Positions 616 through 62,215 of a stretch of DNA of 64,000 bases are shown piece by piece. Position numbers and translations under genes: made by a program. Position 1 is the stretch's first letter. Each line of letters starts with the position of its first letter. The notes under the pieces are model-generated. The model searched no databases. It worked only from the letters and a program-made list of their open reading frames with translations, and was not told where the DNA came from. Origin of the DNA: Hydrogenophaga sp. (GTDB lineage Bacteria; Pseudomonadota; Gammaproteobacteria; Burkholderiales; Burkholderiaceae_C); contig JAURYH010000021.1 of the NCBI GenBank assembly GCA_030653975.1, positions 1 through 64,000 on the forward strand, read 5' to 3'.

Positions 616-762
616 ATGAGAGTTCACGTGGGTTACAAGCGACAAGATGCCCTTCAACGGTGTCAGGTGTGTGAGGAGGTCAGTGGACCTACAAGAGGTC
701 CGGACCACCCAGCCAGCTTTTCACACATGCAAGTCCAGGGTGCAAGGGGGTTGTCGACATGA
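616..762 (+). CDS. Possible 48-residue small protein ahead of the CBASS operon
   Basis: An ATG at 616 follows a strong ribosome-binding site (AAGGAG at 604-609) and opens a 48-codon frame that ends in the ATGA overlap with the next gene at 759, as expected for translational coupling. The product contains a C-x2-C pair (RCQVCEE) and no domain I recognise. The alternative is that this is leader RNA between the truncated regulator and the ATPase gene. The ribosome-binding site and start share the 14-mer AGGAGTTCAGTATG with the start of another small gene at 8489-8502 in the same island. Confidence 0.3.
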   Translation: MRVHVGYKRQDALQRCQVCEEVSGPTRGPDHPASFSHMQVQGARGLST

Positions 763-1694
763 AGTCTGCAAATCCGCCACCCCTGCACCTGGTGCAGTCC
801 CCGGACCTGCCTCGAGGCATCAGCTCGGTCCGGGCATTGCCCGATGTTGAGTTGGCCTCACTTTGGGACAGCATCGTTGTCGAGGAGGGCATCAAGGAGC
901 GCCTGCTCGCTCAGGCAGTCTTGAATTACACGCTCCGACCGAAGGTGGCGCGTAGCGTTCTGCCAATGCACGGCGTCATCCTGCTCGTCGGCCCTCCGGG
1001 CACGGGCAAGACCTCGTTGGCTAAGGGCCTGGCCAGCACGGTCGCTGCATTGATGAAGGGTGCCAAGTTCCGTCTGGTGGAGGTGGACCCCCACGCCCTT
1101 ACCAGCTCAGCGATGGGGAAGACGCAGCGTGCCGTTGGCGAGTTGTTCTCTCAGTCGATTACCGAGCAGGCGGTGAACGGGCCCACCATCGTGCTGCTGG
1201 ACGAGGTTGAGACGCTGGCGGCCGACCGCACGCGTATGAGCCTGGAAGCCAACCCGGTGGACATCCATCGCGCCACCGACGCTGTCCTGGTCCAACTCGA
1301 TGCTCTGGCTGCTTCCCATCCACATCTGCTGTTCCTAGCGACGAGCAACTTCCCGCTAGCAATCGACCAGGCGTTTACGTCGCGATGCGACTTGGTCATC
1401 GAGGTGCCACTGCCGGGTGCGCAGGCCGCTCACCAAATTCTTCAACAGTGCTTGCGCAGTGTCGGTGGGACTTTCCCGGCCATCGCAAAGCTGGCCGACA
1501 GTCGAGATTTAGACCGCGTGGCTGCGGCAGCGGCTGGCCTCGACGGTCGCACGTTGCGCAAGCTGGTCGTCAACGCGATGGCCCTGCGCAAGGAAACCGC
1601 GCTTGACCCCAACAAGCTGGCCTTGACCGACCTGGAGGTCGCCGCGCGCAATGCACAGGGCAGCCAGGCTGCCGCCAAGGGAGAGCACAAATGA
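759..1694 (+). CDS. cap6: CBASS TRIP13/Pch2-like AAA+ ATPase (Cap6)
   Basis: This 311-residue AAA+ ATPase has a Walker A loop GPPGTGKT at residues 78-85, Walker B IVLLDEVE at 144-151, a sensor-1 Asn in ATSN (197), an SRC arginine-finger position (209) and a sensor-2 Arg at about 264. In type III CBASS, the TRIP13-like ATPase unfolds closed HORMA proteins and so restrains the signalling nucleotidyltransferase until infection. Family membership is supported by the neighbours: a HORMA protein and a CD-NTase lie just downstream. The ATG at 759 has a good ribosome-binding site (AAGGGGG) and overlaps the stop of a possible leader ORF. Its own stop overlaps the next start by ATGA, so the genes form a tight operon. 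Confidence 0.9.
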   Translation: MKSANPPPLHLVQSPDLPRGISSVRALPDVELASLWDSIVVEEGIKERLLAQAVLNYTLRPKVARSVLPMHGVILLVGPPGTGKTSLAKGLASTVAALMKGAKFRLVEVDPHALTSSAMGKTQRAVGELFSQSITEQAVNGPTIVLLDEVETLAADRTRMSLEANPVDIHRATDAVLVQLDALAASHPHLLFLATSNFPLAIDQAFTSRCDLVIEVPLPGAQAAHQILQQCLRSVGGTFPAIAKLADSRDLDRVAAAAAGLDGRTLRKLVVNAMALRKETALDPNKLALTDLEVAARNAQGSQAAAKGEHK

Positions 1695-2167
1695 CGAGCG
1701 TGGTTCGGCGGGACTTCCGCAGCATTCCTCACCGCGATGCGTCGGCTACCTGGGCGGCGATTGTGGACCTCTTGACTGCTGGCGGCGATGTGGCAAAGCG
1801 CAAGGAGCTCCAGGCGGTGGCTGGCGTGGCGTCCAGCGTCATCGCAGACCAGGGCCCGCGCGCAAGCCCCATCGTTGCTACCTGTGATGGGCCGCGCACA
1901 CGCGTCTACTGCAGCTACGACGACGACGCGTTGGACGACGCGAGCAGCAACGAGGCAAAGCTAGGGTTCGATGCCCTTAAGGGTGACTGGCAAGTGTCGC
2001 TGCCCGTTGCCGAAGAAGACTTGGCCTGGGTGCAGTCAGCCCTCAAGAAGCACAGCACCCGCATCATCGCCCGTGACAAGACCGAAGGTGTTGTTGTCGA
2101 GAAAGAAGAGCAGGCTGCGGCCAGCAGTTCGATGACGCTGGATGTGGAAGGGTTTTGGAAATCATGA
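1691..2167 (+). CDS. Small CBASS accessory protein, probably a second HORMA-class subunit
   Basis: This 158-residue protein overlaps the ATPase gene by 4 bases and the HORMA gene by 4 bases, so it belongs to the CBASS operon. Residues 1-130 look like one compact domain, with the conserved-looking strings [27 protein letters not shown] and [15 protein letters not shown]. Then come a charged, Ala/Ser-rich linker (about 133-147) and a short hydrophobic tail, [11 protein letters not shown]. Some type III CBASS operons encode two HORMA-like proteins, one of which offers a peptide for the other to clasp. The linker-plus-tail architecture would suit a closure peptide, but that is inference. I am not certain that the body is a HORMA fold. 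Confidence 0.6.
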
Positions 2168-2664
2168 CCACCGTATCGGCCTACTCCTACACCCACTCCG
2201 TAACCTACGTTGCGGATAACGTGCTCAAAAGCTTGAAGGACATCATTCGTTTGAGCGGCATGGACCCAACGAAGCTCACCAATGAGTGGGAGAGTACGCA
2301 CCGTGCAATCCGAACCTGGCTGGCGAGTGAGCATCTGGAGAAGGTCGTTCTCGAGGTGTACAACCCGGTAACCAACGCGCTGGTTTTGCGCTGGGACATC
2401 GACATCGTCTACCAGTGGTCCAACAGCGACGGGGTGTTCTACACAGACACCGACCAACTGAGGTACCACATCAAGAAGGCAGGTGTCGCCCCGGCCAGCG
2501 CAAACTACGACATCCTTCTTAAAAACAAGCCCGGGAGACCTGATGTTGCAGGCTGGGGAAGGGGCTCGTTCCGCGCGACCGATGGCATGGTTCGACAGAG
2601 CCTGGGTTCGACGATTGAACACAGCGGGCTGGGCGCCAGCGCCGCTTACTGGAGGACCCGCTGA
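2164..2664 (+). CDS. cap7: Bacterial HORMA-domain protein of CBASS (Cap7)
   Basis: The 166-residue product begins [19 protein letters not shown] and continues [15 protein letters not shown], the typical opening of the bacterial HORMA family found with CD-NTases. In type III CBASS the HORMA protein recognises a peptide, closes around it and then binds and activates the nucleotidyltransferase; the TRIP13-like ATPase reverses this. I chose the ATG at 2164 rather than the TTG nine bases upstream because it overlaps the previous stop as ATGA and sits behind a GGAA ribosome-binding site. The stop overlaps the next ATG by one base (TGATG). Confidence 0.85.
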
Positions 2665-3569
2665 TGCCGACCCTGGATGAAGCCTTCAGGAAGTTCAAGA
2701 GCCGGCTTGAACTCAACGAGCGCGAGCAAAAGAACGCCATTAACCGCCATACCGAGGTGCGCGAGCACGTCAGGTCGCGGTTCGCCATCAGCCGCGACTT
2801 CCTGACCGGGTCCTACGCGCGCCACACCAAAACGAAGCCGCTGAAAGACATCGACATCTTCTTCGTGTTGGCAGAGTCCGAGCGCAAAAAATACCGCGAT
2901 AAGGCGCCCAGTGAGGTTTTGGATGACTTCCACAGCGCCCTGGTCGACAAGTATGGAAAGGATGCGGTGCGCAAGCAGGGTAGGTCAGTCAACGTTGACT
3001 TCGGGGTGGTTGTCGACTCTGACGACAATACCGACTACCGCGTCCTTAGTGTCGATGTGGTTCCGGCCTTTGCCGACGGCACGAACTACGAAATTCCCAA
3101 CACCGACACCGGCAAGTGGATGAAGACCAACCCGGAAATTCATGCCCAGCAGGCGAAGGATGCGCATCAGGCCTACTCCAACGAGTGGAAGGGTCTGGTG
3201 CGGATGGTCAAGTACTGGAACAACAACGCCAAGCACGGAAAAGATAAGCCAGTAAAGCCGTCGTTCCTTATCGAGGTGATGGCGATGCAGTGTTTACATG
3301 GAGGCTGGCAAGGTCGCTTCGATTACGAAATTCAGGGCTTCTTCTCCTCTCTTGCAGACCACATCGAGCACGACTGGCCCGACCCTGCTGGCATGGGTTC
3401 CCCTGTGAGTGACGGTATGGATGCCCGGCGCAAGGCTCGCGCAAAAGTACTTCTTCAGGGGGCAAGTCGTGAGGCTTCAAACGCTATCCACCTGTCGCGA
3501 AAAGGGCAGAACGGCGAAGCGTTGAAGGCTTGGCGCCAGATTTTCGGAACCAAGTTTCCGTCGTCTTGA
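2664..3569 (+). CDS. CBASS cyclic oligonucleotide synthase (CD-NTase)
   Basis: The 301-residue protein is a nucleotidyltransferase with the signature [17 protein letters not shown]: the GS pair at 49-50, the catalytic carboxylates D62 and D64, and the third carboxylate at D131 in SVDVVPAF. The stretch [12 protein letters not shown] resembles the CdnC/CdnD clades that pair with HORMA and TRIP13. It would make a cyclic di- or tri-nucleotide when activated by the closed HORMA protein, and that messenger would switch on the effector encoded next. The exact clade and product cannot be assigned by eye. Length is normal and all catalytic residues are present, so the enzyme should be active. Confidence 0.9.
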
Positions 3570-3654
3570 ACAACCGCACTGCCACCAGACCGAGTCAAAA
3601 CAGTACATGGTTTGCCTTGTCTTCTTTCAACGGTGCACATCTTCTGGAACCAGC

Positions 3655-4416
3655 ATGACGAACAACCCCGCATCACCCACCGCACTCCAAGCTCCCAACA
3701 ACGATGTGTCATGGTTGCGCGACGCATTTGCAAAAGTGCAAACCAATCTGATGGACCAGATGGATTTTGCGTCTCAATCCATCAGCCATGCAGGGACGAT
3801 GGGCTCGGTCAACGAAGAGCACTGGCTGAGCCTCTTCCGGTCGTATTTGCCCAATCGCTACGACGTCGCCTCCGGCATCGCCATAGATAGCCTTGGTAGC
3901 CGAAGCGACCAGATTGACTTGGTTGTATTTGACCGGCACTTCACGCCCACGCTGCTTGACCAGAAGAGTCATCGGTACATTCCAGCGGAAGCTATCTACG
4001 CCATCTTTGAATGCAAGCCGACCATCAGCAAAGGATATATCGAGTACGCACAGAACAAGGCAGCATCGGTGCGCCGCATGCATCGAACCTCTGTGTCCAT
4101 CTCGCATGCTGGTGGCGTGTATAGCCCGAAACAGCCGTTCCAAATACTGGCAGGGCTTCTGGCACCCCGGGCAGACTGGGTCGATGGACTTGGAAAGTCT
4201 TTCAGCCAGTGCATTGGTTCCGAGGTCGTTTCAAGGCTCGACTGCGGCTGCGCGCTCGAGCATGGAAGCTTTGATTTCTTCGAGGGGGAGCTAAAGGTCG
4301 TTAAAGAACAGGCCGCATTGATGCACTTTCTGTTTCGCCTGTTGTCACGGCTTCAGTCGCAGGGGACAGTGCCAGCCATCGACTGGGCCGCATACAGCCG
4401 CATCGTCCCAGCATAG
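3655..4416 (+). CDS. DUF6602-like putative nuclease, likely CBASS effector
   Basis: This 253-residue protein follows the CD-NTase by 85 bases on the same strand, the usual place of a CBASS effector. It contains SDQIDLVVFD followed by AIYAIFECKPT. The D ... E-x-K spacing is that of PD-(D/E)XK nucleases, and the overall pattern resembles the DUF6602 family. No membrane segment, SAVED domain or NucC-like sequence is visible. I chose the ATG at 3655, which has a GGAA site eight bases upstream, over the in-frame ATG at 3607, which has none. Whether it responds to a cyclic nucleotide is inference from position; it could also be a separate defence gene. Confidence 0.7.
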   Translation: MTNNPASPTALQAPNNDVSWLRDAFAKVQTNLMDQMDFASQSISHAGTMGSVNEEHWLSLFRSYLPNRYDVASGIAIDSLGSRSDQIDLVVFDRHFTPTLLDQKSHRYIPAEAIYAIFECKPTISKGYIEYAQNKAASVRRMHRTSVSISHAGGVYSPKQPFQILAGLLAPRADWVDGLGKSFSQCIGSEVVSRLDCGCALEHGSFDFFEGELKVVKEQAALMHFLFRLLSRLQSQGTVPAIDWAAYSRIVPA

Positions 4417-4667: not shown

Positions 4668-5327
4668 CTAAAAAGAAAATGACTCGCTGGCCCTGAACAG
4701 TTGCGCAGGCCGCTGGGGCCCCCGTACGTACTCGTCAAGTTCGACCAGGTCCCTGGACTCTTTCAGCCTTCGCCTGAACGAGCTCTTGTCCAAGGGATGC
4801 CCCAAGATGATTTCCGTGACTCGCTGAAGCTGCCTCAGTGTGAACTTCTCCGGCAACAGATGCAATGGGAGCACGTCGGCGGCCACCTTGGCACGCAATT
4901 TCTGCACTGCGCAAGAAAGGTGTTCTGAATGGTCGAATGCCAACTTGTGGTCCGTAGACAGGGCATCTGCCCATTCCAACGCCTCAATCTTGCTTTTGAC
5001 CACAGCGCTTGTCTTGTCCAGCGGCAGCAATGCATAGAACAACACTGAAACCGACCACCCACGCGGGTCGCGGTCAGGACCGCTGAATGTTCGGACCTCT
5101 TCGACAAGCGGCAGCTCGATGCTGACCTTTTCAGCCAGCACTCGACGCGCAGCGCTCTCAAGTGAGCTGTCCAGGTGCGGTTTCAATATTCCCCCTGGAA
5201 GCGCCCAACGCTTGGCATGCGGGGCTTGAGCCCGTCTAACGAGCATCACACGCAGGCTCTCGTCACCGACGCAGAACAGCGCGATGTCAACACCCACCAG
5301 AGGAAAAAGCTCCCGAGTCATCACCAT
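4668..5327 (-). CDS. NrtR-like Nudix-domain transcriptional regulator
   Basis: The 219-residue protein has an N-terminal Nudix domain (about 1-140) and a C-terminal winged helix (about 150-215) with FTLRQLQRVTEIILG followed by FRRRLKES and RPAQLFRAS, the arrangement of NrtR regulators. The Nudix box is degenerate: where an active enzyme has the REUxEE core, this protein has RRVLAEK. It is therefore more likely a sensor of ADP-ribose or a related nucleotide than a hydrolase. The gene is divergent from a phosphatase/ADP-ribosylglycohydrolase operon, and two matching palindromes fill the 68-base gap, consistent with control of that operon and of itself. The alternative start is an ATG two codons in (5321). 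Confidence 0.8.
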   Translation of the reverse strand: MVMTRELFPLVGVDIALFCVGDESLRVMLVRRAQAPHAKRWALPGGILKPHLDSSLESAARRVLAEKVSIELPLVEEVRTFSGPDRDPRGWSVSVLFYALLPLDKTSAVVKSKIEALEWADALSTDHKLAFDHSEHLSCAVQKLRAKVAADVLPLHLLPEKFTLRQLQRVTEIILGHPLDKSSFRRRLKESRDLVELDEYVRGPQRPAQLFRASESFSF

Positions 5328-5328
5328 A

Positions 5329-5378
5329 GTTGCACGTTGCCACTAAGAATCCTATAATAGTTGCATTATGCTACTAAG
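5329..5378. promoter_or_regulatory. Twin palindromic operators for the Nudix regulator
   Basis: Two 19-base units, GTTGCACGTTGCCACTAAG (5329-5347) and GTTGCATTATGCTACTAAG (5360-5378), are identical at 15 of 19 positions and start 31 bases apart, about three helical turns. The first 15 bases of each form an inverted repeat of the form GTnGCAnnnTGCnAC. They flank the -10 box of the operon promoter and lie directly upstream of the Nudix regulator start. This is strong internal evidence for a two-site operator; the identity of the bound protein is inferred from the adjacent regulator gene. Confidence 0.7.
5330..5358 (+). promoter_or_regulatory. Sigma-70 promoter of the phosphatase/ADP-ribosylglycohydrolase operon
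   Basis: A -35 TTGCAC (5330-5335) and a perfect -10 TATAAT (5353-5358) are separated by 17 bases. Transcription should begin near 5365, about 30 bases before the ATG at 5396, which has a ribosome-binding site AGGAGAA. The -35 lies inside the first operator repeat and the start point inside the second, so a repressor bound at either would block RNA polymerase. Confidence 0.75.
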
Positions 5379-5395
5379 CAGGTTCAGGAGAAGCA

Positions 5396-6334
5396 ATGGC
5401 TTATGACATCATCGGCGACATTCACGGTCAGGCAGACAAGCTTGAGGGGGTTCTGCAAGGGATGGGGTATCGGCAAACGGCCGGGGCGTACCGCCATCCA
5501 AGTCGAAAGGCCATCTTTGTAGGCGACTACATCGACCGGGGGCCCCGACAGGTGGATACCTATAGAACGGTGCGCAACATGGTGGAGGCTGAGAGCGCTC
5601 TGGCGATTCTTGGAAACCATGAATTCAATGCGATTGCCTGGCACATGCCTGACCCGGAGCGCTTGGTGGACCGGCATTTTCTGCGCTCCCGTCACGGAGA
5701 AACTGGCGCCAAGAATCGTCACCAGCACCATCAGTTCCTCGCCGAAGTCGAGGGGACTCCACTGCATCAGGAGATAGTCGACTGGTGCATGACCTTGCCC
5801 CTGTGGCTTGACCTGCCCGAGCTGCGGGTGGTTCACGCCTGCTGGCACGACGAATTCATCTCAGAACTGGAGCCTTTGCTGGGGCCCCAGCGCAACCTGA
5901 CGCCCGAGTTGATGGTCCGCGCGAGCCGTCCGGACGATGCTGTATTTCGAGCTGTCGAGGGCCTGACGAAAGGGTTGGAAGTGCCCTTGCCCAATGGGCA
6001 CTCGTTTCTCGACAAGGACGGGCACGAGCGGCGCAACGTACGGGTGAGGTGGTGGGATGAACATCGCTCGAGCTTTCGCGAACTTGCGCTGATGCCAGAT
6101 GAAGAGCGCATGGCACTACCTGATGACACGGTGCCCGAATCCAGTCGCCCATCGTATGACCAAAAAAAGCCGGTCTTTTTCGGGCACTACTGGCTGCAGG
6201 GCCAGCCCACGCTGCAATCAGAAAAGATGGTTTGTGTGGACTACAGCGCAGGCAAGGGCGGTCCGTTGGTGGCCTATCGCTGGGAGGGCGAAGACACTCT
6301 CGACGCAAGCAACTTCTTTGTGCAGGAGCACTGA
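5396..6334 (+). CDS. PPP-family metallophosphatase (PrpE-like)
   Basis: The 312-residue protein carries the PPP-family metal-binding motifs in order: GDIHG (D8, H10), GDYIDRG (D44, D47, R48) and GNHE (N74, H75), with further His residues at VVHACWH and FGHYW. Members of this family include serine/threonine and diadenosine-tetraphosphate phosphatases and PrpE-like enzymes; the substrate cannot be read from the sequence. It is the first gene of the operon behind the Nudix-controlled promoter, and the next gene begins one base after its stop. With a Nudix regulator and an ADP-ribosylglycohydrolase as neighbours, a nucleotide or ADP-ribose-phosphate substrate is a reasonable inference. Confidence 0.8.
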   Translation: MAYDIIGDIHGQADKLEGVLQGMGYRQTAGAYRHPSRKAIFVGDYIDRGPRQVDTYRTVRNMVEAESALAILGNHEFNAIAWHMPDPERLVDRHFLRSRHGETGAKNRHQHHQFLAEVEGTPLHQEIVDWCMTLPLWLDLPELRVVHACWHDEFISELEPLLGPQRNLTPELMVRASRPDDAVFRAVEGLTKGLEVPLPNGHSFLDKDGHERRNVRVRWWDEHRSSFRELALMPDEERMALPDDTVPESSRPSYDQKKPVFFGHYWLQGQPTLQSEKMVCVDYSAGKGGPLVAYRWEGEDTLDASNFFVQEH

Positions 6335-6335
6335 T

Positions 6336-6878
6336 TTGAAAAACCCCGCTTCCAGACCCGCCCAACCCGTCGCACCCGGCGCTGGCCCTAATCCCCGACT
6401 GACCGACGAAGCTTTTATGCTCACGCCAGGTCAAACGGCGGCGCGAATTGCCATCAAAACGGCAAAGACCGCCATGACACTCGCCAAAGCCCATCTGGCT
6501 CGTGAATCGAAGAAGCACGGGGGCAGGTGGCAGTGGGTGGAGTTTCCGGGGCCTAAGGGCCGGGAGTCTGCCGGAATCGCCGACATCCTTGCCATACGCA
6601 AGCGTTGGGAGAAATCCGACCTTCCGGAAGACGCGGTGCTCAAGCATCTGGATGACTTCGACATGATGCTGATTCAGGTGAAAGGTGGGGGAGCACGTAC
6701 GCCCACAGCACAGGACATTGCTCGAATGGAGCGTGTTGCCGACCTCCATGGCATTGACAAGGTGCTTTTGTACCAATGGAACATCAAGAGGCGAACAGAG
6801 ACCGGCTACCGCCTGCTGAACCGGGAGACTCACCAGTTCGGACCGGTCGTCAAGGACGGCAAAGAACTCTTTGCGTAG
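6336..6878 (+). CDS. Uncharacterised protein with a PD-(D/E)XK-like core
   Basis: I place the start at TTG 6336, because AGGAG lies eight bases upstream and the spacing from the previous stop is one base; an ATG at 6417 is the fallback. The 180-residue product has a Pro-rich N-terminus, a helix about residues 33-58, then WVEFPGPKGRESAGIADILAIRK and FDMMLIQVKGG. The order E77 ... D83 ... Q114-x-K116 with flanking hydrophobic strands resembles the nuclease core of the PD-(D/E)XK superfamily. No specific family is recognised. Its place in the middle of the Nudix-controlled operon suggests a nucleic-acid-linked step in that pathway. Confidence 0.6.
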   Translation: MKNPASRPAQPVAPGAGPNPRLTDEAFMLTPGQTAARIAIKTAKTAMTLAKAHLARESKKHGGRWQWVEFPGPKGRESAGIADILAIRKRWEKSDLPEDAVLKHLDDFDMMLIQVKGGGARTPTAQDIARMERVADLHGIDKVLLYQWNIKRRTETGYRLLNRETHQFGPVVKDGKELFA

Positions 6879-6888
6879 GGAGTCTTGC

Positions 6889-7227
6889 GTGAGTTCTGCC
6901 CACATGTTCTCCTTCACGTCAATCCCCGACTTCACTGCTCGGGGGTTGCGTCGCTGCGTGGTACCGGGCACAAGCACGAGCTTCTCGCTGCGTGGCGCTC
7001 GCCATACCCAGGCTTTGGCCGACTTCTGGCAAGGAAAGGAAGGCGCCGTATTGATGCGGGTCTCGTGGATAGGCTACTGCTGGAGCTTCAGTGTGCACCA
7101 GCGTTCTGGTATGCCAATACCCGATGAATCCGCATCGATGCAAGCTCTCGCAGTGTGCATGCAGCAGGAGCTTTTTCGCTGGATGACAGAGGATGCCGCG
7201 GACGAGCCACCCTTCGGCAAATTCTGA
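6889..7227 (+). CDS. Unknown small protein in the Nudix-controlled operon
   Basis: The reading frame starts best at GTG 6889, six bases after a GGGAG ribosome-binding site that spans the stop of the preceding gene. The product of 112 residues has no recognisable domain. Visible features are a Trp-rich centre (ADFWQGKEG, VSWIGYCWSF) and an acidic C-terminal helix (ELFRWMTEDAADEPP). Its stop is 31 bases before the ADP-ribosylglycohydrolase start. A function cannot be stated from the sequence. Confidence 0.55.
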   Translation: MSSAHMFSFTSIPDFTARGLRRCVVPGTSTSFSLRGARHTQALADFWQGKEGAVLMRVSWIGYCWSFSVHQRSGMPIPDESASMQALAVCMQQELFRWMTEDAADEPPFGKF

Positions 7228-7258
7228 AGCGACATTGACGTCGCGGACAAGGAAACAC

Positions 7259-8230
7259 ATGGATATCGTTGACCTGGCTCAGGGGTGCCTACTGGGCGCC
7301 TTCATCGGGGATTCGGCTGGGGCCCGTTTGGAGTTTCTCGGGCGACGCCCTTCCGAACAAGAAATTGCTGACGCGTTGGCAATGAAAGGCGGCGGGGTGC
7401 TGCGCGTTGCCCCGGGGCAGGTCACAGATGATGGCGAACTCACGCTCGCATTGGCTCGTGCACTCGTTGGTGAGTACCGCTTTCCACGGGAAAAGGTCGC
7501 CATCAACTACCGCGCCTGGCTCACTAGCAGACCGTTCGACGTGGGCCACGCCACCTACGCTTCGCTTTCTGGCGCCGTGCAACTTAAAGAAGCGGTGGCC
7601 GATGCCGTTGCCCGGAGCGCTACAACTCACAACATTGATTCGAAGGCAAATGGCGCACTGATGCGAGCCAGTGCCCTGGGCGTCTGGGCAACCCGGGTGA
7701 CCCAGGAGGAGGCTGCAATGGCAGCTTGCGCAGACACAAAATTGACTCACCCGAACCTCAGCTGTCAGGGGGCGAGTGCCGCATACGTCGTGGCCATCAG
7801 GCACCTTCTGCTTCATCCGGGCGACAGCGTGGGGGCCTTTGCTCAAGCAAGAGAGGTGCTGGTGAGCGGCCAAGCAGGAGTCGGATTTGATGAAGCTGTT
7901 TCCTGGCTGGATGATGCGCAGGGAGGTGCACTTCCAACTGGGTACCCCATGGCAGGTTTTGTGCGAATCGCATTCACCCATGCGTTTCATCACCTGCTGC
8001 AGGAAACATCCTTTGCAGAGGCGTTGCCGCAAGTGCTGGCGTGTGGGGGCGATACCGACACGAATGCCTGCATCGTGGGTGGTCTCGTTGGTGCCCGCGT
8101 CGGTATCCAAGGCATTCCAGAGCCAATGACCCGCGCCGTTGTGGAATGCGACACGCAAAAGGGACGACCTCGCCCAGACTGGCTGACGACTCGTGATGCG
8201 TTGGAATTGGCCAAGGCGCTCCTTGCCTGA
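7259..8230 (+). CDS. ADP-ribosylglycohydrolase family protein (DraG/ARH-like)
   Basis: The 323-residue protein shows the binuclear-metal motifs of ADP-ribosylglycohydrolases: G-x2-IGDSAGA near residue 15-21, Q-VTDDGELTLALA at 55-66 and GGDTDTNACIVGG near residue 262. These enzymes remove ADP-ribose from proteins, nucleic acids or small molecules. The start at 7259 has an AAGGAA site; longer readings into the preceding gene are not needed. It is the last gene of the operon behind the Nudix-regulated promoter. It is distinct from the nif-associated DraG encoded at 61283-62215, and the substrate here is unlikely to be nitrogenase, given the island context. Confidence 0.88.
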   Translation: MDIVDLAQGCLLGAFIGDSAGARLEFLGRRPSEQEIADALAMKGGGVLRVAPGQVTDDGELTLALARALVGEYRFPREKVAINYRAWLTSRPFDVGHATYASLSGAVQLKEAVADAVARSATTHNIDSKANGALMRASALGVWATRVTQEEAAMAACADTKLTHPNLSCQGASAAYVVAIRHLLLHPGDSVGAFAQAREVLVSGQAGVGFDEAVSWLDDAQGGALPTGYPMAGFVRIAFTHAFHHLLQETSFAEALPQVLACGGDTDTNACIVGGLVGARVGIQGIPEPMTRAVVECDTQKGRPRPDWLTTRDALELAKALLA

Positions 8231-9066: not shown

Positions 9067-10782
9067 TTAGACCCATGTCACACCAAACATCGGGTCACTG
9101 ACATAGAGGTGGGAAAGGTCCAACTCCTCGTATCGGAGCTTGGCAATCGCTTCAACCAAGGGTGGCAATGGGTACTGCCTGTTTTCTTGGCGCATGTACC
9201 CCCTGGATGCTCGATTCTGATAAATCCAGTGCCCAGTCAGGGCGTCCCTCGCTTCGTTTTCGATGCCACAGTGTGTGCACTGCTGCTTGAAATTGAAGCG
9301 AAAACTGTGGAAGTCCAATCGTGGGTCTTTGAGGTCAAGTGAGTCAAGGTACCTGCCGTACCAAGAGCCGAGGCTGGGCCCCCACCGTTTGTCCTGGTTA
9401 TTGTTCTTCTGGGACGGAAACAACCGCCGCTCACTTGCTGACCTCATCGCAGCGACATGGACCAACAGGCCGCACTTGATGAGTTCCTGATGCAGGGGAA
9501 CCTGTCGATAGCTGGTCTCTGTTTTGAGATGCTGGTCTGGGTCGAGGTTTGCGATACGGACCACCCACGCGCCATTTATGCGGAGGATGTCGGCTAGCGT
9601 GAGTTGGGCGATTTCCTCCAATCTTCCTCCAACAAAGAGCCCGAGCAGCGGTGCCCAGTAAGAGGCCTCCTTGTTCTGACCAGTGGGCCGGTAGCCCTCG
9701 CAGTACAAGGGGGACAAGAAGAGCTTTTGCAGCTCCCACATTTCATAGGCGCGCCTGTCCTCGGAGGGTGAAGCTTCCGGGACTTCCAAGAGCGAGACAT
9801 TCTCAAACGGATTCGCGACCACCTTGGTCTGCTTCTTGTCGAGCCCCTCGCGGACCAGCGTGGCCAATCCTGAAATATGGTTTCGGGCGGTTTCTCGAGT
9901 GACGCCCTCTTTCGCCAAATGCTTGACGTATGCATCGACATGTTCACCGTTGATGCCCGCCACGGGCAGCGCTCCATGGAGAGCCTCGAACTTTTCCACA
10001 AAACTCATATAGGTTTGTTTCGTGCGCGCTATGGTCTGAGAGCGCTCCCATCGCGCGTGGAGCTCAAACAATGTGGGCATATCGCGCGGTGCGATGGGTA
10101 CCGTTTTTGGAGTGTCATCCACGTCCCCGTGAACGCGTTCCAACTGCGCCTTCATGAGCTTGAGGTCAAGGTGGAGAAGTCCCTTCAGCAACATCTTGCG
10201 AACTTCGGAACCAGGCGGAGCAATCAGAAGTTCGTCCTTCAACAACTGCTGGGCGACCTCCTCATGCTCAGAGTAGTCCTCATCGGCGGCCTGCTCCCGA
10301 AGATAGGCGACACCCTCTTCCATCAATGCCAACCGCTCTTTGCGAGCCTGTCGACGTTCGAGCTTCTCCCTAATTCTCCCGATGTCCGTTCTTTCCTCGT
10401 CATCGGTTTCCAGGAGGAAGAATGCATACCGCTCCAACAGGGCCGGGATGTGGGCTTCCTGCAGGTATTTCGTGGTTCCAGGGGCGCGCGCCTTCGGTAC
10501 GCGGCGCTTGGACGAAACAGCCTTTTGTCGCGCCTTGTTGACCATCTTGTCAAACTCGACAATGCACTCCTTCAACCTCTTCTTCGCTTGCTCAAGGTCC
10601 CCTGTTCGCAACGATTTCCAAACCTGCTCTATCGGCGGGTCCAAAAGCCTCGATACATCAGTCGGCACCTTGCGCTTGAAGTAATAAATCCCCTTCCGCG
10701 ACTTCATGTATTCCGGCAGCGCGGGCTCACCACCGATTGAGGCCTCTATCAGCGTAAAGCTGCTGCATTCAGGTTCGGTCAT
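9067..10782 (-). CDS. Large tyrosine site-specific recombinase (integrase), copy 1
   Basis: The 571-residue protein has an N-terminal integrase-associated region (MKSRKGIYYFKRKVPTDVSRLL, the DUF6538 pattern), a central SAM-like core-binding domain and a C-terminal catalytic domain. The catalytic pieces are GGRLEE (Arg), HSFRFNF (H-x2-R), TGHW (His) and a tyrosine in SRGYMRQENRQY. I start at 10782, where AAGGAA precedes the ATG; a longer frame up to 10887 has no ribosome-binding site. It is a diverged paralogue of the next gene upstream. It would catalyse integration or excision of the island next to the tRNA-Asp gene. Confidence 0.85.
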   Translation of the reverse strand: MTEPECSSFTLIEASIGGEPALPEYMKSRKGIYYFKRKVPTDVSRLLDPPIEQVWKSLRTGDLEQAKKRLKECIVEFDKMVNKARQKAVSSKRRVPKARAPGTTKYLQEAHIPALLERYAFFLLETDDEERTDIGRIREKLERRQARKERLALMEEGVAYLREQAADEDYSEHEEVAQQLLKDELLIAPPGSEVRKMLLKGLLHLDLKLMKAQLERVHGDVDDTPKTVPIAPRDMPTLFELHARWERSQTIARTKQTYMSFVEKFEALHGALPVAGINGEHVDAYVKHLAKEGVTRETARNHISGLATLVREGLDKKQTKVVANPFENVSLLEVPEASPSEDRRAYEMWELQKLFLSPLYCEGYRPTGQNKEASYWAPLLGLFVGGRLEEIAQLTLADILRINGAWVVRIANLDPDQHLKTETSYRQVPLHQELIKCGLLVHVAAMRSASERRLFPSQKNNNQDKRWGPSLGSWYGRYLDSLDLKDPRLDFHSFRFNFKQQCTHCGIENEARDALTGHWIYQNRASRGYMRQENRQYPLPPLVEAIAKLRYEELDLSHLYVSDPMFGVTWV

Positions 10783-10896
10783 CAGTTTCCTTTTTACTGA
10801 CGCTATATCGACCTTCCATGCCCGTCCTTGAACCAGCACATTTGAAAATCTGCGGAATGCGCGGCATACCGTCAGCAGGCGGCGCATCGGCGTCAG

Positions 10897-12534
10897 CTAT
10901 GCAAGCAAAACATCAGTGCCATCCAACGGGCTATCGACAAAAAGGTGGTCCACCTGCAACTCTTCGTAGGACAGCTGACGAATGCCCTCGGTGAGTTTCG
11001 GATACGAGTACTGCCGGTTTTCTCCTCGGAGGTAGGCACGGCCCGCATCCTTGGCCCCCACCCAGTGCCCACTCAAGGCGTCTCGGACTTCATCGCTCAG
11101 GCCGCACAAGCTGCATTGCTGCTTGAACGAATAGCGAAACGAGTGATAGTCCAGGCGGGAATCGCCCAGGCCGATGGTTTCGAGATACCTGCCAAACCAC
11201 TTGCCCACCGCATTTGAGTAGATGCGATTGGCGTTATGGTTTGAGAGCGTCGGGAACAAGCGCTCATGCCCTGCTGCGGCCATCCTGGCGGCGTACACCA
11301 GAAATCCACTTCGGATGACCACGTCGTGCAACGGGACACGTCGGAAACTGCTTTCAGTCTTCACGTTTTGCTCTTCGTCGAGGTCGCAAATGCGGATACA
11401 CCAGACCCCGTTGATGCGCTGAACGTCGTCCAGGCGCAACTGACACAGTTCCTCGATGCGTGCGCCGACGAATGGGCCCAGCAAAGGTACCCAGTAAGCC
11501 GCATCGATGGCCTGCCCGTCGGGCCGGTAGCCCTGCGTGTAGAGCCGACTGGCAAACAGGGCGTTGAGCTCCTTGACCGAGAAAGCTCGTCGCTCCTTGG
11601 GGGCTCGCAGTCCCTGCGCCCCGACAACGTCGATACGCTCGAACGGGTTGCGAACGAGGTCTTCAACCAACTCCCTCATGCCATGGCGCACCAGGGTGCT
11701 GAGAAAGCCGATACGGTTTTCGATGGTGCCTTTGGACAGACGGCGCTCGATGAGTGCGTCGCGGTAGGCCCTCACGTGTGCCTTGGTGATGTCAGGCACA
11801 GCGAGAAAACCGTGCAGTGTTCGAAAGTCCATGACCACGTTGTGCACGGCAGCCAGCGTGCGAGGCCGCGTCTGCTTGAGCTTCCAGTCTTCGAAGAGGT
11901 GCAACATAGTCACAATGGCAGCACCTGAACCGGGCTGATGCGGTGGAGCGCCGAGCTGAGGCACGGCGCCGTGCGATGAGTGAGTGCTGGTTCGTTTTGC
12001 AACAGGCAAGCGAGAGGAATTTCCAGCTGTTGGTGGCGCTTGCATGACTTCTGCTCTCCCCACACGACGCACCGAGTTGCCATCGCCGGGCGCCACAGTC
12101 AACCTATTGCTCTGGGGGGCAACCACCGCAGCCGCCTGAACACCGCTGTCTGCGGTTACGCCAGTTACAGCTTTTGCCAATCCAGCAGGCTGCTGGCCGT
12201 TAGACGGATGCCCAGAGTTGTGGACCAAACGGTCGGGTCGCAGGCACCCCGCCGCCACGGCCCAGTCGTTGGCAAGCACCTTGCGCAGGTGCGCCACTTT
12301 CAGCTCGAACTCTGTGACCTCCACGGCAAGGTACACCCGCGCCTGATGAAACAGCTGGGTGCCCAGGCTCTTCCAGAGCTGTCCGCGGTAGTCGGGAAAT
12401 CCGTGCGCAACATCTGCTGGAATTTTGCGTTTGAAATAAAAAGTGCCGCCGCGCTTGTGCAGGTACTTTGGCTTGGCACCGAGGGACTTTGCAGTTGTGA
12501 GTGCGTAGGGTCCGGATAAATTGCCGTTTGACAT
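10897..12534 (-). CDS. Large tyrosine site-specific recombinase (integrase), copy 2
   Basis: The 545-residue protein has the same layout as its neighbour: YLHKRGGTFYFKRKIPADV at the N-terminus, a low-complexity Ala/Val/Gln-rich linker (about 110-195), a core-binding domain and a catalytic domain with GARIEE, HSFRYSFK, SGHW and RAYLRGENRQY. The ATG at 12534 has GGAG seven bases upstream; the ATG at 12549 has none. The gene lies about 170 bases from the tRNA-Asp terminator, the usual position for an island integrase. Two full-length paralogues in tandem suggest either a two-recombinase mechanism or successive insertions at one site. Confidence 0.85.
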   Translation of the reverse strand: MSNGNLSGPYALTTAKSLGAKPKYLHKRGGTFYFKRKIPADVAHGFPDYRGQLWKSLGTQLFHQARVYLAVEVTEFELKVAHLRKVLANDWAVAAGCLRPDRLVHNSGHPSNGQQPAGLAKAVTGVTADSGVQAAAVVAPQSNRLTVAPGDGNSVRRVGRAEVMQAPPTAGNSSRLPVAKRTSTHSSHGAVPQLGAPPHQPGSGAAIVTMLHLFEDWKLKQTRPRTLAAVHNVVMDFRTLHGFLAVPDITKAHVRAYRDALIERRLSKGTIENRIGFLSTLVRHGMRELVEDLVRNPFERIDVVGAQGLRAPKERRAFSVKELNALFASRLYTQGYRPDGQAIDAAYWVPLLGPFVGARIEELCQLRLDDVQRINGVWCIRICDLDEEQNVKTESSFRRVPLHDVVIRSGFLVYAARMAAAGHERLFPTLSNHNANRIYSNAVGKWFGRYLETIGLGDSRLDYHSFRYSFKQQCSLCGLSDEVRDALSGHWVGAKDAGRAYLRGENRQYSYPKLTEGIRQLSYEELQVDHLFVDSPLDGTDVLLA

Positions 12535-12707
12535 CGAGGTGCTCCACATGAAGGTCTGTGAGACCCCTCGGAGCGGCTGCCAACGAGCACCAGAAACGTT
12601 CGCCGCGACTTCAACGCGGAGAGCTACAACTGCTACACCTGACTGCTACACCGAAGGGCATTTCGGGTAGCACCGTCAGAACGTAGATTGGGTAGCAGAA
12701 AACAAAA

Positions 12708-12740
12708 AAGCCGTTGAAAATCAATGACTTTCAACGGCTT
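12708..12740 (-). terminator. Rho-independent terminator of the tRNA operon
   Basis: Read on the minus strand, AAGCCGTTGAAA pairs with TTTCAACGGCTT around a nine-base loop and is followed by a run of T. It lies 11 bases beyond the tRNA-Asp 3' end. Confidence 0.85.
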
Positions 12741-12750
12741 GATGCTTTAC

Positions 12751-12827
12751 TGGCGGAGTGGACGGGGCTCGAACCCGCGACCCCCGGCGTGACAGGCCGG
12801 TATTCTAACCAACTGAACTACCACTCC
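12751..12827 (-). tRNA. tRNA-Asp (GTC)
   Basis: A 77-base gene with acceptor GGAGTGG pairing with CCACTCC, anticodon loop CTGTCAC (anticodon GTC), a T-arm GGTTCGAGCC and an encoded CCA. It is last in a tRNA-Ala, tRNA-Glu, tRNA-Asp operon. Its 3' end faces the recombinase genes and is the likeliest integration target for the 1-12.7 kb island. Confidence 0.97.
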
Positions 12828-12883
12828 GCAGTGGTGCAGCTTTTGCCTGAAACCTTACAGCTTCAAGCCAAGTGCCACAAACT

Positions 12884-12959
12884 TGGCGACCCTACGGGGA
12901 TTCGAACCCCGGTACTCACCGTGAAAGGGTGATGTCCTAGGCCTCTAGACGATAGGGTC
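12884..12959 (-). tRNA. tRNA-Glu (TTC)
   Basis: A 76-base gene with anticodon loop CTTTCAC (anticodon TTC), T-arm GGTTCGAATC and encoded CCA. It is the middle gene of the tRNA operon. Confidence 0.97.
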
Positions 12960-13034
12960 AAAACCTTGGAACTAACCGAACTTTGCATTGTATCAGCCGC
13001 GCCATCGCTTATCCGATACAAGCTTCACAAATTG

Positions 13035-13110
<76 letters not shown>

Positions 13111-57822: not shown

Positions 57823-58797
<975 letters not shown>

Positions 58798-58849
58798 TTA
58801 TTGCTCTAGGTTCACGTCGGCCGGACTGGTGTCCGCGCACCCTCCTCTT

Positions 58850-58865
58850 TGCAGCTTCCGTGCCA
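58850..58865 (-). promoter_or_regulatory. Sigma-54 promoter of nifHDK
   Basis: On the minus strand TGGCACGGAAGCTGCA matches the consensus TGGCACG-N4-TTGCA at all but one position (C for the first T of TTGC). Predicted start is near 58839, 123 bases before the nifH ATG. Confidence 0.85.
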
Positions 58866-58884
58866 TGTTGTCTGGCCTCTGTTT

Positions 58885-58900
58885 TGTCGCTCTTGAAACA
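58885..58900. promoter_or_regulatory. NifA upstream activating sequence 1
   Basis: TGTCGCTCTTGAAACA is a perfect TGT-N10-ACA. Its centre is about 54 bases upstream of the nifH start point, closer than usual for NifA. Confidence 0.65.
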
Positions 58901-58960
58901 GGGCCTCCACAGAGGGGAAAGCGCACTTTTCAGGGCTCGCCGCGGGCGCCGTCCGGGCTT

Positions 58961-58976
58961 TGTCCTGTTCCCGACA
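58961..58976. promoter_or_regulatory. NifA upstream activating sequence 2, midway between divergent promoters
   Basis: TGTCCTGTTCCCGACA is a perfect TGT-N10-ACA. Its centre is about 130 bases from the nifH start point and 127 bases from that predicted for the haemoglobin promoter, the classic distance in both directions. Confidence 0.75.
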
Positions 58977-59068
58977 AAACGGCGAAATCCGTCGCACACA
59001 CATCGCGTCGGTGGGTCGCCTCGGCGGCTTTGTGTCGCATTTGATGGCCGCGGGTGGACAAATCCGCC

Positions 59069-59084
59069 TGGTACGGTCATTGCT
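59069..59084 (+). promoter_or_regulatory. Sigma-54-like promoter of the haemoglobin-draT-draG group
   Basis: TGGTACGGTCATTGCT matches TGGCACG-N4-TTGCT with one change (T for C). The predicted start, about 59095, is only two bases before the ATG at 59097, so the leader would be almost absent. The site is plausible but less certain than the nifH promoter. The rest of the 380-base gap shows no gene. Confidence 0.6.
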
Positions 59085-59096
59085 CTTTAGAGAGGC

Positions 59097-59555
59097 ATGA
59101 ACCTGCCCCACGCGCTCACCACCGAACCGGTCGCACCGCCCTCGCACTTTGAAGCGATCGGTGGCCAGGCGGCGGTGGACCGCCTGGTGAACGCCTTCTA
59201 TGCGCAGATGGACAACCGCCCCGATGCCACCGGCATCCGCGCCATGCACGAGCCCGACCTGGGCCACACCAAGGCCGTGCTGCGGCTGTACCTGGCCGAG
59301 TGGCTGGGCGGCCCCAAGGACTACACGGCACAACGCGGCCACCCGCGCCTGCGCATGCGCCACGCGACTTTCCCCATCGGCATTCCCGAGCGCGACGCCT
59401 GGCTCGCCTGCATGGACGCCGCGATGCAACAGACCGGCGTGCCCGATGACCTGCACCGCGTGCTGATGGCGGCCTTCTTCAAGACCGCCGACTGGATGCG
59501 CAACACCCCAAACCCCCCGGCAATCCCTGCCACCAACCCGAAGGAAGCTTCATGA
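59097..59555 (+). CDS. Truncated haemoglobin, group II type
   Basis: The 152-residue protein has the globin opening FEAIGGQAAVDRLVNAFYAQM, the group II signature YLAEWLGGPKDYTAQRGHPRLRMRHATFPIG (proximal His in the RHATFPI block) and WLACMDAA. It binds oxygen and may scavenge it for nitrogenase or feed respiration. The start codon has AGAGAGG just upstream. It overlaps the next gene by four bases. Confidence 0.9.
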   Translation: MNLPHALTTEPVAPPSHFEAIGGQAAVDRLVNAFYAQMDNRPDATGIRAMHEPDLGHTKAVLRLYLAEWLGGPKDYTAQRGHPRLRMRHATFPIGIPERDAWLACMDAAMQQTGVPDDLHRVLMAAFFKTADWMRNTPNPPAIPATNPKEAS

Positions 59556-60160
59556 CCGCCACCCTGGCCACCCAAGAGATCGACGACACCGCGTTTGCCC
59601 GCCTGGACAGCGAGGGCCGCCTGCTCAACCCCTTGCTCAAGGGCAGCACCAACAAGTTTGGCCGGGTCGGCTTTCGCGGCGAGCTCGCGCTGCGTTTTGC
59701 ACCGAAGCTGGCCGACGAAGCGCGTCCGCCCGAACTGCTGTGCGGCCAGGCCATGGCGGTGGGCACCGTGGGTGAAAAGACCCTGTCTTTCTTCGCCGGC
59801 TACCTGCTGAGCTTCGAGTACCTGAAGGACGTGGCCGAGGTGCTGGGCGACACGCTGAGCGCGGGCGGCAAGTACTTCCTGTTCTGCAACAACATCGACC
59901 TCTCGAAGAAGTACCAGGTGCCGTACAAGGGCGCGATGTTCTACGTGCTGCCGATCGACGAAGCCACGGTCTACAACGAACTGCTCGACCTGTTCTACTT
60001 GGAAAAGGGCGACCTGAAGAAGAAGGACACCGCAGGCAAGCTCGACGCCATCGCCGACGCCGCGCTGAAGTACGACGTCACCTTCGACACCATCACCTAC
60101 GACGAAGGCCTGACGCTGATGGGACCGGTCCGCAACCCGAACGAAAACCGTCCCGTTTGA
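59552..60160 (+). CDS. Unknown protein between haemoglobin and draT
   Basis: The 202-residue product has GSTNKFGRVGFRGELALRFAPKLA, GEKTLSFFAGYLLSFEYLKDVAEVLGD, GGKYFLFCNNIDLSKKYQVPYKGAMFYVLPI and TITYDEGLTLMGPVRNPNENRPV. No family is recognised. It overlaps the haemoglobin gene by four bases, so the two are co-translated. It is soluble, with no membrane segment. Expression with nitrogenase is inferred from the promoter arrangement. Confidence 0.75.
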   Translation: MTATLATQEIDDTAFARLDSEGRLLNPLLKGSTNKFGRVGFRGELALRFAPKLADEARPPELLCGQAMAVGTVGEKTLSFFAGYLLSFEYLKDVAEVLGDTLSAGGKYFLFCNNIDLSKKYQVPYKGAMFYVLPIDEATVYNELLDLFYLEKGDLKKKDTAGKLDAIADAALKYDVTFDTITYDEGLTLMGPVRNPNENRPV

Positions 60161-60293
60161 TCGGTGTCTTCCTGCTGCGCGAACCGATGCTGCATCTGCG
60201 GTGCTCGCCGTACGTGAGTATGGCTCCGCTCCTCAACGCAGCCTCGGTCCGCTCGCGACGGAATCCATCCGATCAAACCCTCAGGCCGTTGAG

Positions 60294-61139
60294 ATGGACG
60301 ACGATGAGCACGACCAACCCCAACGCTGGACCAGCACCAACCTGGTGGGAGTGTCCACGGCCTGGCTGGCCAGCGCGGGCTTCAATGAGCGCGCGCCCGA
60401 GCTGCACATCGCCGGCACGCGCGAGACCCAGCCGGGTCTCTTCGCGCTGCTGGACCGCTGCGACGACCTGACCCAAGCGCGCGAGGTGTTTGTGCACTAC
60501 CTGTCCATCGCCTTCGGCCTGCAAGCTCCCGAGAAACCCGCCATCGGCAGCGCGGCATCGGCCGAGCCGCGGCGCTGGCGCGGCAACTGGCGCCGCCTGC
60601 TGCAGGGCTGGGGCATGGACGCCAACGGTGTCGCGGGCGCCGTGCTCAAGGGTTGGGTCGAAAGCCGTTTCGGCCTCGTGCCCACGTTCCACAAAGCGCC
60701 GCTGGCGCACTTCCCTTCACCCGCCTGGGTGGCCTACCTGGAAGAAAAAACCAGCAGCCGCCACCACAGCAACAACATCCACCAGCAGCTCGACCTGCTG
60801 TACGAGTTCTGCCAGTGGGCGCTGGCCCGCTTCCCGCTGCCCGCGCCCCAGATGCAGGGCCCCCACGTGCGGCTCTGGCGGGGCAGCAACCGCGTGGAAG
60901 AGCAGCTGCTGCAAGGCACGCTGCGCGAACGCCGTTGCCGCGTTCGGCTCAACAACATCGTGTCCTTCAGCCTCAGCGCCGAAGAAGCCTCGTGTTTTGG
61001 CGACTGGGTGTTCGAGCTGCTGGTGCCGCGCAGCAAGCTGCTGGTGTTCCCCGGCCTGCTGCCGGGCCAGGTGCTGCAGGGCGAGCAGGAGGTGATCGCC
61101 CTCGGTGGCGACTACGACGTGGTGGCGCGTTATGACTGA
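60294..61139 (+). CDS. draT: NAD+-dinitrogen-reductase ADP-ribosyltransferase
   Basis: The 281-residue enzyme uses NAD+ to ADP-ribosylate NifH, turning nitrogenase off in the dark or with ammonium. The family is recognised from TSTNLVGVSTAWLASAGFN, NWRRLLQGWGMD--GVAGAVLKGWVESRFGLVPTFH and RLWRGSNRVEEQLL. I start at MDDDEHDQ (60294); the frame is open to 60201. The 133-base gap before it has no gene. Confidence 0.95.
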   Translation: MDDDEHDQPQRWTSTNLVGVSTAWLASAGFNERAPELHIAGTRETQPGLFALLDRCDDLTQAREVFVHYLSIAFGLQAPEKPAIGSAASAEPRRWRGNWRRLLQGWGMDANGVAGAVLKGWVESRFGLVPTFHKAPLAHFPSPAWVAYLEEKTSSRHHSNNIHQQLDLLYEFCQWALARFPLPAPQMQGPHVRLWRGSNRVEEQLLQGTLRERRCRVRLNNIVSFSLSAEEASCFGDWVFELLVPRSKLLVFPGLLPGQVLQGEQEVIALGGDYDVVARYD

Positions 61140-61146
61140 AGTGAAA

Positions 61147-61228
61147 CACCCCCCGCGCCGCTTCGCGTCACCCCCCAGGGGGGCGGCACTGGCCGTCTGG
61201 CGAAGCCAGCCCGGCGGTGCCCCCGGTT
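61147..61228. repeat. Dispersed repeat, family B, between draT and draG
   Basis: CCCCCCGCGCCGCTTCGCG, CACCCCCCAGGGGGGCGGC and GTCTGGCGAAGCCAGCCCGGCGG follow the draT stop in the same orientation as the 26159 and 26907 copies. Confidence 0.7.
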
Positions 61229-61282
61229 GGCGTTGTTTCATGCGTCGCGGGTGGCGCTCCGGCGACATGAGAACTAAACATC

Positions 61283-62215
61283 ATGACTGAGCAGTTCGAC
61301 CGGGTGCTCGGCGCCTACCTCGGCCTGGCCATCGGCGACGCCCTGGGCGCGACGGTGGAGTTCATGCGCCCGCGCGAGATCGCGCTGCAGTACGGGGTGC
61401 ACCGCGACATCGTGGGCGGCGGCTGGCTCAAGCTCGCGCGCGGCCAGGTCACCGACGACACCACCATGAGCCTCGCCCTGGGCGACGCCCTGCTGAAGTC
61501 CGGCCCCGCGGGCCTGCAGAATTTTGTCGCCCACGGTGACGACACCCTGGTCCGCGGCATCGCTGAGGCCTACGTGGGCTGGTGGCGCGGCAAGCCCGTG
61601 GACTGCGGCAACACCTGCCGCCGCGGCATCCTGCGCTTCCTGCTGGACGGCAGCCTGACCGGCCCCTACAACGACGGCGACGGCGGCAACGGTGGCCTGA
61701 TGCGCAACCTGCCCGCCGTGCTTGCCACGCTCGGGGACGACGCGGCCTTTGAGCGCCTCGCCATCGCCCAGTCGCGCATCACCCACCACCACGCCCTCTC
61801 CGACGCGGCCGTGCTCGGTGTCGGCCGTCTGCTGCGCGGTGTGCTGGCGGGCGACGACCAGGCCGAACTGCGGGCCAAGTCGGCGCGCTGGGTGGCGGCC
61901 GAGCCGGTCTTCCGCTTCACCCCCTACCGCGGTCGCGCCACCGCCTACGTGGTCGACACGGTGCAGACCGTGCTGCACTTCGTGGGCGAACACGAAGACT
62001 TTGAAGATGCCCTGGTCGCGACCGTGAACCAGGGCGACGACGCCGACACCACCGGCGCCCTCGTGGGCATGCTGGCCGGCGCCCGCTGCGGCGCTTCCGG
62101 ATTGCCCCAGCGCTGGCTGCGGCGGCTGCAGCCCGCCACCGTGCGCGCCATCACCGACCAGACCAGCGGCCTGCTGGCCCTGGCGCAGAGCCGGGAGGAC
62201 CTGGCCCATGCCTGA
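61283..62215 (+). CDS. draG: ADP-ribosyl-[dinitrogen reductase] hydrolase
   Basis: The 310-residue hydrolase removes ADP-ribose from NifH and restores activity. The binuclear-metal motifs are IGDALGATVEFM near residue 17-28, GQVTDDTTMSLALG at 54-67 and GDDADTTGALVG near the C-terminus. It overlaps the next gene by eight bases. Confidence 0.96.
   Translation: MTEQFDRVLGAYLGLAIGDALGATVEFMRPREIALQYGVHRDIVGGGWLKLARGQVTDDTTMSLALGDALLKSGPAGLQNFVAHGDDTLVRGIAEAYVGWWRGKPVDCGNTCRRGILRFLLDGSLTGPYNDGDGGNGGLMRNLPAVLATLGDDAAFERLAIAQSRITHHHALSDAAVLGVGRLLRGVLAGDDQAELRAKSARWVAAEPVFRFTPYRGRATAYVVDTVQTVLHFVGEHEDFEDALVATVNQGDDADTTGALVGMLAGARCGASGLPQRWLRRLQPATVRAITDQTSGLLALAQSREDLAHA

Follow-up and report, generated by a model that had tools for sequence, protein, structure and literature searches.

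Iyer et al. 2022 (PMC9503650) predicted that systems centred on an ADP-ribosylglycohydrolase (ARG) act against viral ADP-ribosylation, many phages being described in the text of that paper as encoding ADP-ribosyltransferases. According to the same text these systems combine a repressor of the Nudix or WYL type with a phosphatase (of several kinds, calcineurin-like included), restriction endonucleases (REases), chaperones and Macro or NADAR proteins. A Nudix-helix-turn-helix (Nudix-HTH) or WYL repressor is reported for more than 42% of them and a phosphatase for just over 55%, and a peptide-binding chaperone is often present. The systems are predicted to be off by default and to be induced by released ADP-ribose or nucleosides. 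In the open-licence PubMed Central literature they were found described in this paper alone, and no experimental test of such systems, or of how bacteria reverse the marks of phage ADP-ribosyltransferases, was found there. The locus described here is a five-gene cassette at 4668-8230 of a 64,000 nt stretch (the window) from Hydrogenophaga sp. (assembly GCA_030653975.1, contig JAURYH010000021.1, positions 1-64,000, forward strand). It fits the kind predicted in the text of Iyer et al. 2022, and the claim of an earlier, sequence-only reading of this DNA that no system of this composition had been described is not supported.

The cassette is best read as an inducible system for erasing ADP-ribose, with a presumed antiviral role; we give this reading about an even chance. 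It is based on the gene order, the conservation of the genes as a unit, paired operators placed on the -35 and -10 elements, a degenerate Nudix box in the repressor, intact hydrolase and phosphatase motifs, and a PARG-type fold predicted at a related locus. The features of the cassette, in window coordinates, are:

4668-5327, minus strand: NrtR-type repressor, with a degenerate Nudix domain and an NrtR winged helix (PF21906, PF00293, structure matches)
5326-5346, no strand assigned: operator 1, a 21 bp palindrome that overlaps the repressor start codon and contains the -35 element (matrix score 30.5)
5330-5358, plus strand: promoter predicted from sequence, with -35 TTGCAC at 5330-5335, a spacer of 17 and -10 TATAAT at 5353-5358
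5357-5377, no strand assigned: operator 2, a 21 bp palindrome that overlaps the end of the -10 element (matrix score 34.6)
5396-6334, plus strand: PPP-family phosphatase (PF00149, motifs)
6336-6878, plus strand: PD-(D/E)XK-like (REase-like) protein of 180 residues, TTG start (predicted fold)
6889-7227, plus strand: small protein of 112 residues, GTG start (6 relatives)
7259-8230, plus strand: ADP-ribosylglycohydrolase (ARH) of the DraG-like superfamily (PF03747), its start taken as the ATG at 7259 in a frame open from 7193

The four co-directional genes are spaced by 1, 10 and 31 nt, and it is therefore plausible that the phosphatase, REase-like, small and ARH genes form a single transcription unit. 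The sequence-only reading had placed all five genes here, as an operon behind a repressed promoter and an NrtR-type regulator that is divergently transcribed and has a degenerate Nudix box, concerned with ADP-ribose and not with NAD biosynthesis. The genes are present at these coordinates, and the domain matches and gene spacing bear out the operon and its regulator. The overlap of the two palindromes with the -35 and -10 elements supports a repressible promoter, the ADP-ribose theme holds, and the operon contains no NAD-biosynthesis gene. The grouping is not a chance one, as the same set recurs in other genomes. Run on the genome-contig collection, a profile built from the REase-like protein (A1) identified 7 loci. 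The whole five-gene set is kept in order in a Hydrogenophaga (L003), in two Acidovorax loci (L004 and L005, which have identical values and are therefore counted as one) and in a betaproteobacterial metagenome-assembled genome (L006). In Comamonadaceae PBBC2 (L007) the first four genes are kept and the ARH gene is missing. The neighbours are therefore not confined to this genome, as the full set occurs at 4 other loci and the fifth has a partial set with a PARG-type gene. Identities to the window are 73-74% for NrtR, about 75% for the phosphatase, which is present at all five other loci, 67-78% for the REase-like protein, 43-51% for the small protein and 62-71% for ARH. The flanks differ, with a phage-type integrase in L003, DNA polymerase II in L004, an RNA-repair-type gene (HAD_SAK_2) and endonuclease/phosphatase-family genes in L006, and pectin-degradation genes in L007. 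The cassette is rare; profile A1 matched 1 of 399 family genomes and the profile of the small gene 1 of 185 class genomes, each being the genome of the window.

The two candidate operators lie between the repressor and phosphatase genes, 31 bp apart. They score 30.5 (operator 1) and 34.6 bits (operator 2), against 9.1 bits for the next-best site in the 64 kb and a maximum of 11.9 in 20 shuffled windows. When the window's own sites were excluded from the matrix they still scored 29.6 and 32.9 bits. With up to 3 mismatches allowed, the 4.09 Mb genome contains two matches to the motif, both at the cassette and with 1 mismatch each. Promoter elements that resemble those of the window, with 17 bp spacing, are present in L003, L004, L006 and L007. 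With just two operator sites genome-wide and an operon without an NAD-synthesis gene, an NAD-biosynthesis regulon was rejected.

The repressor has matches to NrtR_WHD (PF21906, 6.7e-21) and NUDIX (PF00293, 1e-9) in the Pfam scan, the Nudix-like domain joined to an NrtR winged helix that defines the NrtR family, and is the sole NrtR_WHD match in the whole genome. It matches the S. oneidensis NrtR structures 3gz5/3gz6 at 5.6e-34, and 3gz5 and 5bs6 match it over 200 residues. On the NrtR equivalog NF050029 (ADP-ribose-responsive repressor) it scores 182.7 bits, under the curated cut-off of 400. Its Nudix box has RRVLAEK in place of REUXEE and lacks the E at the GX5E position, which makes it impaired as judged against the motif given in the text of PMC4666351. 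The box is degenerate in 5 out of 5 aligned regulators. Effectors of the NrtR family include ADP-ribose for some members and NAD or arabinose for others. From its likeness to characterised NrtR proteins, the ligand of this repressor is probably ADP-ribose or a derivative, and the protein presumably represses the operon.

The cassette ARH is matched by PF03747 (1.5e-49) and by DraG structures (3.9e-23). The motifs GDxxGxxxE, TDD and GGDTDT, which we presume to have functional roles, are intact in 4 out of 4 aligned ARH proteins. The window also contains, at 57823-62215, nifH with the transferase gene draT (60201-61139) and a true draG (61283-62215), and from this arrangement the host ADP-ribosylates its own nitrogenase. 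On the DraG model TIGR02662 the true DraG scores 375.3 bits and the cassette ARH 102.3, under the cut-off of 337, and the possibility that the latter is the housekeeping DraG was rejected by this score. Scanning of 10 locus proteins, two integrases and two small open reading frames (ORFs) revealed no coupled ADP-ribosyltransferase or sirtuin, DraT being 52 kb off in the nif region.

In L007 the position of ARH is taken by a protein of 337 residues (L007:8973-9986) with a predicted PARG-type macrodomain fold. The assignment comes from the fold search alone; the protein has no significant Pfam, NCBIfam or PDB sequence match, and profile comparison of its family with PARG was not significant. The family comprises at least 8000 protein clusters, and 0 of the 24 members scanned had a significant Pfam match. 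One member (L013) is convergent with a DSP-PTPase-type gene (L013:890-1471); the Pfam families that this gene matches take their names from polymorphic toxin and Swiss Army Knife systems. Microbial PARG genes (PF10021) that are divergent from NrtR regulators occur in two genomes of the same taxonomic order, at L011:492-2900 and L012:1123-2884, and in L011 the PARG gene is followed by a gene for the RNA 2'-phosphotransferase KptA. NrtR control over ADP-ribose erasers may therefore be a wider theme.

The phosphatase is matched by PF00149 (3.3e-10, Pfam), and in NCBIfam by partial matches to Pnkp, PrpE and ApaH that are each under their cut-offs. GDxHG, GDxxDRG and GNHE, motifs which we take to be functional, and later histidines are intact in 5 out of 5 aligned phosphatases. 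A profile search with a limit of 1e-10 found the phosphatase in 41 of 299 family genomes, 11 of these at E ≤1e-40, a threshold chosen after that search. The other 30 genomes, matched mainly over the N-terminal half or less, were dropped. NrtR is divergent and adjacent in 7 of the 11, the window included (G000, G280, G078, G021, G144, G261 and G115), and was not found at the phosphatase locus in G126, G111, G001 and G108. In all 6 pairs outside the window the best operator of the locus is in, or at the edge of, the intergenic gap, at 20.7-27.6 bits, where the maxima of 100 shuffles per locus were 12.0 to 14.7. Four of these 6 loci have a further site that scores above 17 bits. None of the four phosphatase loci without NrtR has an operator (best score 7.8). 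NrtR and the phosphatase are therefore the regulated core in this bacterial family, and the eraser, nuclease-like and small genes are additions to it. In one pair (L073:5280-6226) the phosphatase is split over two reading frames, and the operators are still present. Among 239 genomes of the class, 10 others have a phosphatase match at E ≤1e-40, and NrtR was found in 0 of the 10 stretches fetched, of which L090, L092 and L095 stop at the contig end. Likewise, tblastn found no NrtR at six annotated plasmid loci of phosphatase relatives. That NrtR always accompanies the phosphatase was therefore rejected (7/11 family genomes, 0/10 other class-level genomes).

If the cassette is an inducible eraser, the NrtR-type repressor would sit on the two operators over the operon promoter until an ADP-ribose-like ligand frees it. 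The enzymes, whose activities are presumed from their families, would then likely strip ADP-ribose off host molecules that carry it and process what is released. Once the first copies of the hydrolase had set ADP-ribose free, more enzyme could be induced, making a feed-forward loop. Substrates of the phosphatase may be phosphorylated ADP-ribose or ends that ADP-ribosylation leaves behind, and the nuclease-like protein may serve in repair or as a second-line effector. The system would likely be used to reverse ADP-ribosylation by transferases of phages or mobile elements. A fuller version of this is proposed tentatively, as possible and no stronger. In it the cassette would be an ADP-ribose-inducible antiviral repair system with an "eraser slot", in which the NrtR-phosphatase core and a shared operator code recruit either ARH or an unrelated, unannotated PARG-type macrodomain, along with a REase-like nuclease of its own and a small protein of a new kind. 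The system would remove phage or mobile-element ADP-ribosylation, with the released ADP-ribose as inducer.

Several observations weigh against the eraser reading. By tblastn, all 6 distant NrtR-phosphatase pairs are without a relative of ARH, of the REase-like or small protein or of the 337-residue PARG-like protein, in stretches that end about 300 bp past the phosphatase in G280 and span 3 kb in G261. Eraser activity is therefore not part of an invariant core. NrtR is lacking beside the phosphatase in 4 of the 11 family genomes and in each of the 10 other genomes of the class. The genome encodes its own transferase, DraT, and the cassette ARH would thus meet a mark written by the host. In L007 the gene for the 337-residue protein is set off by 178 nt, and the PARG signature GGG...QEE was found in 0 of 29 members of its family, which is therefore PARG-like by fold and not PARG by active site. 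Finally, a reversed control pattern at 3 mismatches was matched 4 times per strand, the real operator pattern 2 times.

These distant pairs also bear on the main alternative, that the cassette serves clearance of metabolites or RNA repair and not defence. The NrtR-controlled phosphatase would then remove phosphates from by-products derived from ADP-ribose or NAD(P), such as the ADP-ribose phosphates that RNA 2'-phosphotransferases produce, or from the ends of broken RNA, and the ARH, PARG-like, REase-like and small proteins would be optional helpers. A core that is common to pairs without the other genes is consistent with this, as are the best partial NCBIfam match of the phosphatase, which is to the RNA-repair phosphatase of Pnkp, the HAD_SAK_2 gene near the L006 cassette and the KptA gene of L011. 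More distant phosphatase relatives have neighbours that also favour it; one with 37% identity, on a Pseudomonas aeruginosa plasmid (L063, NZ_CP017294.1 367066-375980), is downstream of an NAD kinase gene, which hints at an NAD(P)-related substrate, and another (L062) is near RtcR and TROVE genes. However, the position after the small gene is held by one of two unrelated folds that handle ADP-ribose, for which a general phosphatase pathway has no need, and the distribution is rare and accessory. Clearance is a possible explanation, though a less likely one than the eraser reading.

The 180- and 112-residue proteins have no match in Pfam, NCBIfam or PADLOC. For the latter, 6 relatives were found, and comparison with PDB sequences gave no significant match (best E 0.63). 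For the 180-residue protein, VIA-align of the predicted structure gave a PD-(D/E)XK (REase-type) fold, and its best structural matches include SPARDA defence nucleases. An anti-phage nuclease system, in which this protein cuts invader or host nucleic acid and NrtR, ARH and the phosphatase control its making or licensing, would explain this fold and the position of the cassette in an island with a defence system and integrases. The REase-like gene also occurs in Variovorax (L008) and Verrucomicrobia (L009) where the other cassette genes are absent; in Variovorax, including plasmids (L065, NZ_LR594690.1; L008), it adjoins a WYL-domain gene and helicase/nuclease genes. Against this, Foldseek on the predicted structure found no match under 0.001. 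Of the D...(D/E)xK motif, D83 and K116 are conserved, but the glutamate position is occupied by Q114, so that cutting is unproven. No relatives were found in viral contigs or among PDB sequences. A nuclease system is therefore improbable.

A cyclic oligonucleotide-based antiphage signalling system (CBASS) at 759-4416, with TRIP13, two HORMA proteins, a cyclase and NucC, does lie beside the cassette, as the sequence-only reading had noted, and the end of the repressor gene is about 250 bp from the NucC gene. That reading had linked the cassette to CBASS or to an NAD-depleting defence, and this link is not supported; NucC cleaves DNA and does not consume NAD+, and no CBASS relatives are present in the 10-16 kb stretches of the other five cassette loci, save another AAA protein in L004 with a weak TRIP13 match (24-26% identity). 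Partnership with CBASS was dropped for the stretches examined, and, since the cassette also has its own promoter and operators, it is very improbable that it is a companion of the adjacent system that repairs, for example, its collateral damage. CBASS is preceded by a WCX-domain ORF (142-543), probably the tail end of a WYL-type regulator that the contig start truncates. At 9067-13110 there are two tandem integrase-like genes (DUF6538 and phage-integrase domains) beside tRNA-Asp, tRNA-Glu and tRNA-Ala. This region is likely the right end of the island, with the left end past the contig start.

With one repressor, two operators, one promoter and assayable enzymes, the cassette is a compact and testable case. 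If two unrelated ADP-ribose-processing folds truly share one position, ADP-ribose removal would be what selection keeps there. The cassette further draws attention to a large protein family whose predicted fold is PARG-like and in which no domain is annotated.

The cassette resembles the NrtR regulators of NAD metabolism in domain architecture, degenerate Nudix box, 21 bp palindromic operators and divergent gene, but differs in having no NAD-biosynthesis gene and no second operator locus in the genome. Its operator sequence also differs from theirs. With DraT-DraG (60201-62215) it has in common a hydrolase of the ARH superfamily, although the cassette protein shares only about a third of its aligned residues with the DraG of the window and scores 102 bits where the DraG cut-off is 337. 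An ADP-ribosylation eraser within a defence-type island is also a feature of the DarT-NADAR and DarTG toxin-antitoxin systems, from which the cassette differs in that no ADP-ribosyltransferase toxin is present among the genes scanned. As described in the text of Iyer et al. 2022, the ARG-centred systems have in common with the cassette an ARG (ARH) eraser without a linked transferase, a Nudix-HTH repressor and a calcineurin-like phosphatase. Among the accessory genes, the Macro-type protein of L007 is a further likeness, and the REase-type fold of the 180-residue protein (from VIA-align, the Foldseek search not being significant) may be another. The cassette differs from them in its fixed five-gene order and defined operators, in an NrtR-phosphatase core that also exists without ARG, in the replacement of ARG by a PARG-type protein at one locus, and possibly in its small protein, which has no Pfam match, where they often have a chaperone. 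Relative to the text of PMC9503650, the figures or supplements of which may already draw the arrangement, four things are new: genes in a fixed arrangement, an operator code that is present where NrtR is present, a core formed by NrtR and the phosphatase, and a PARG-type gene in the place of ARH.

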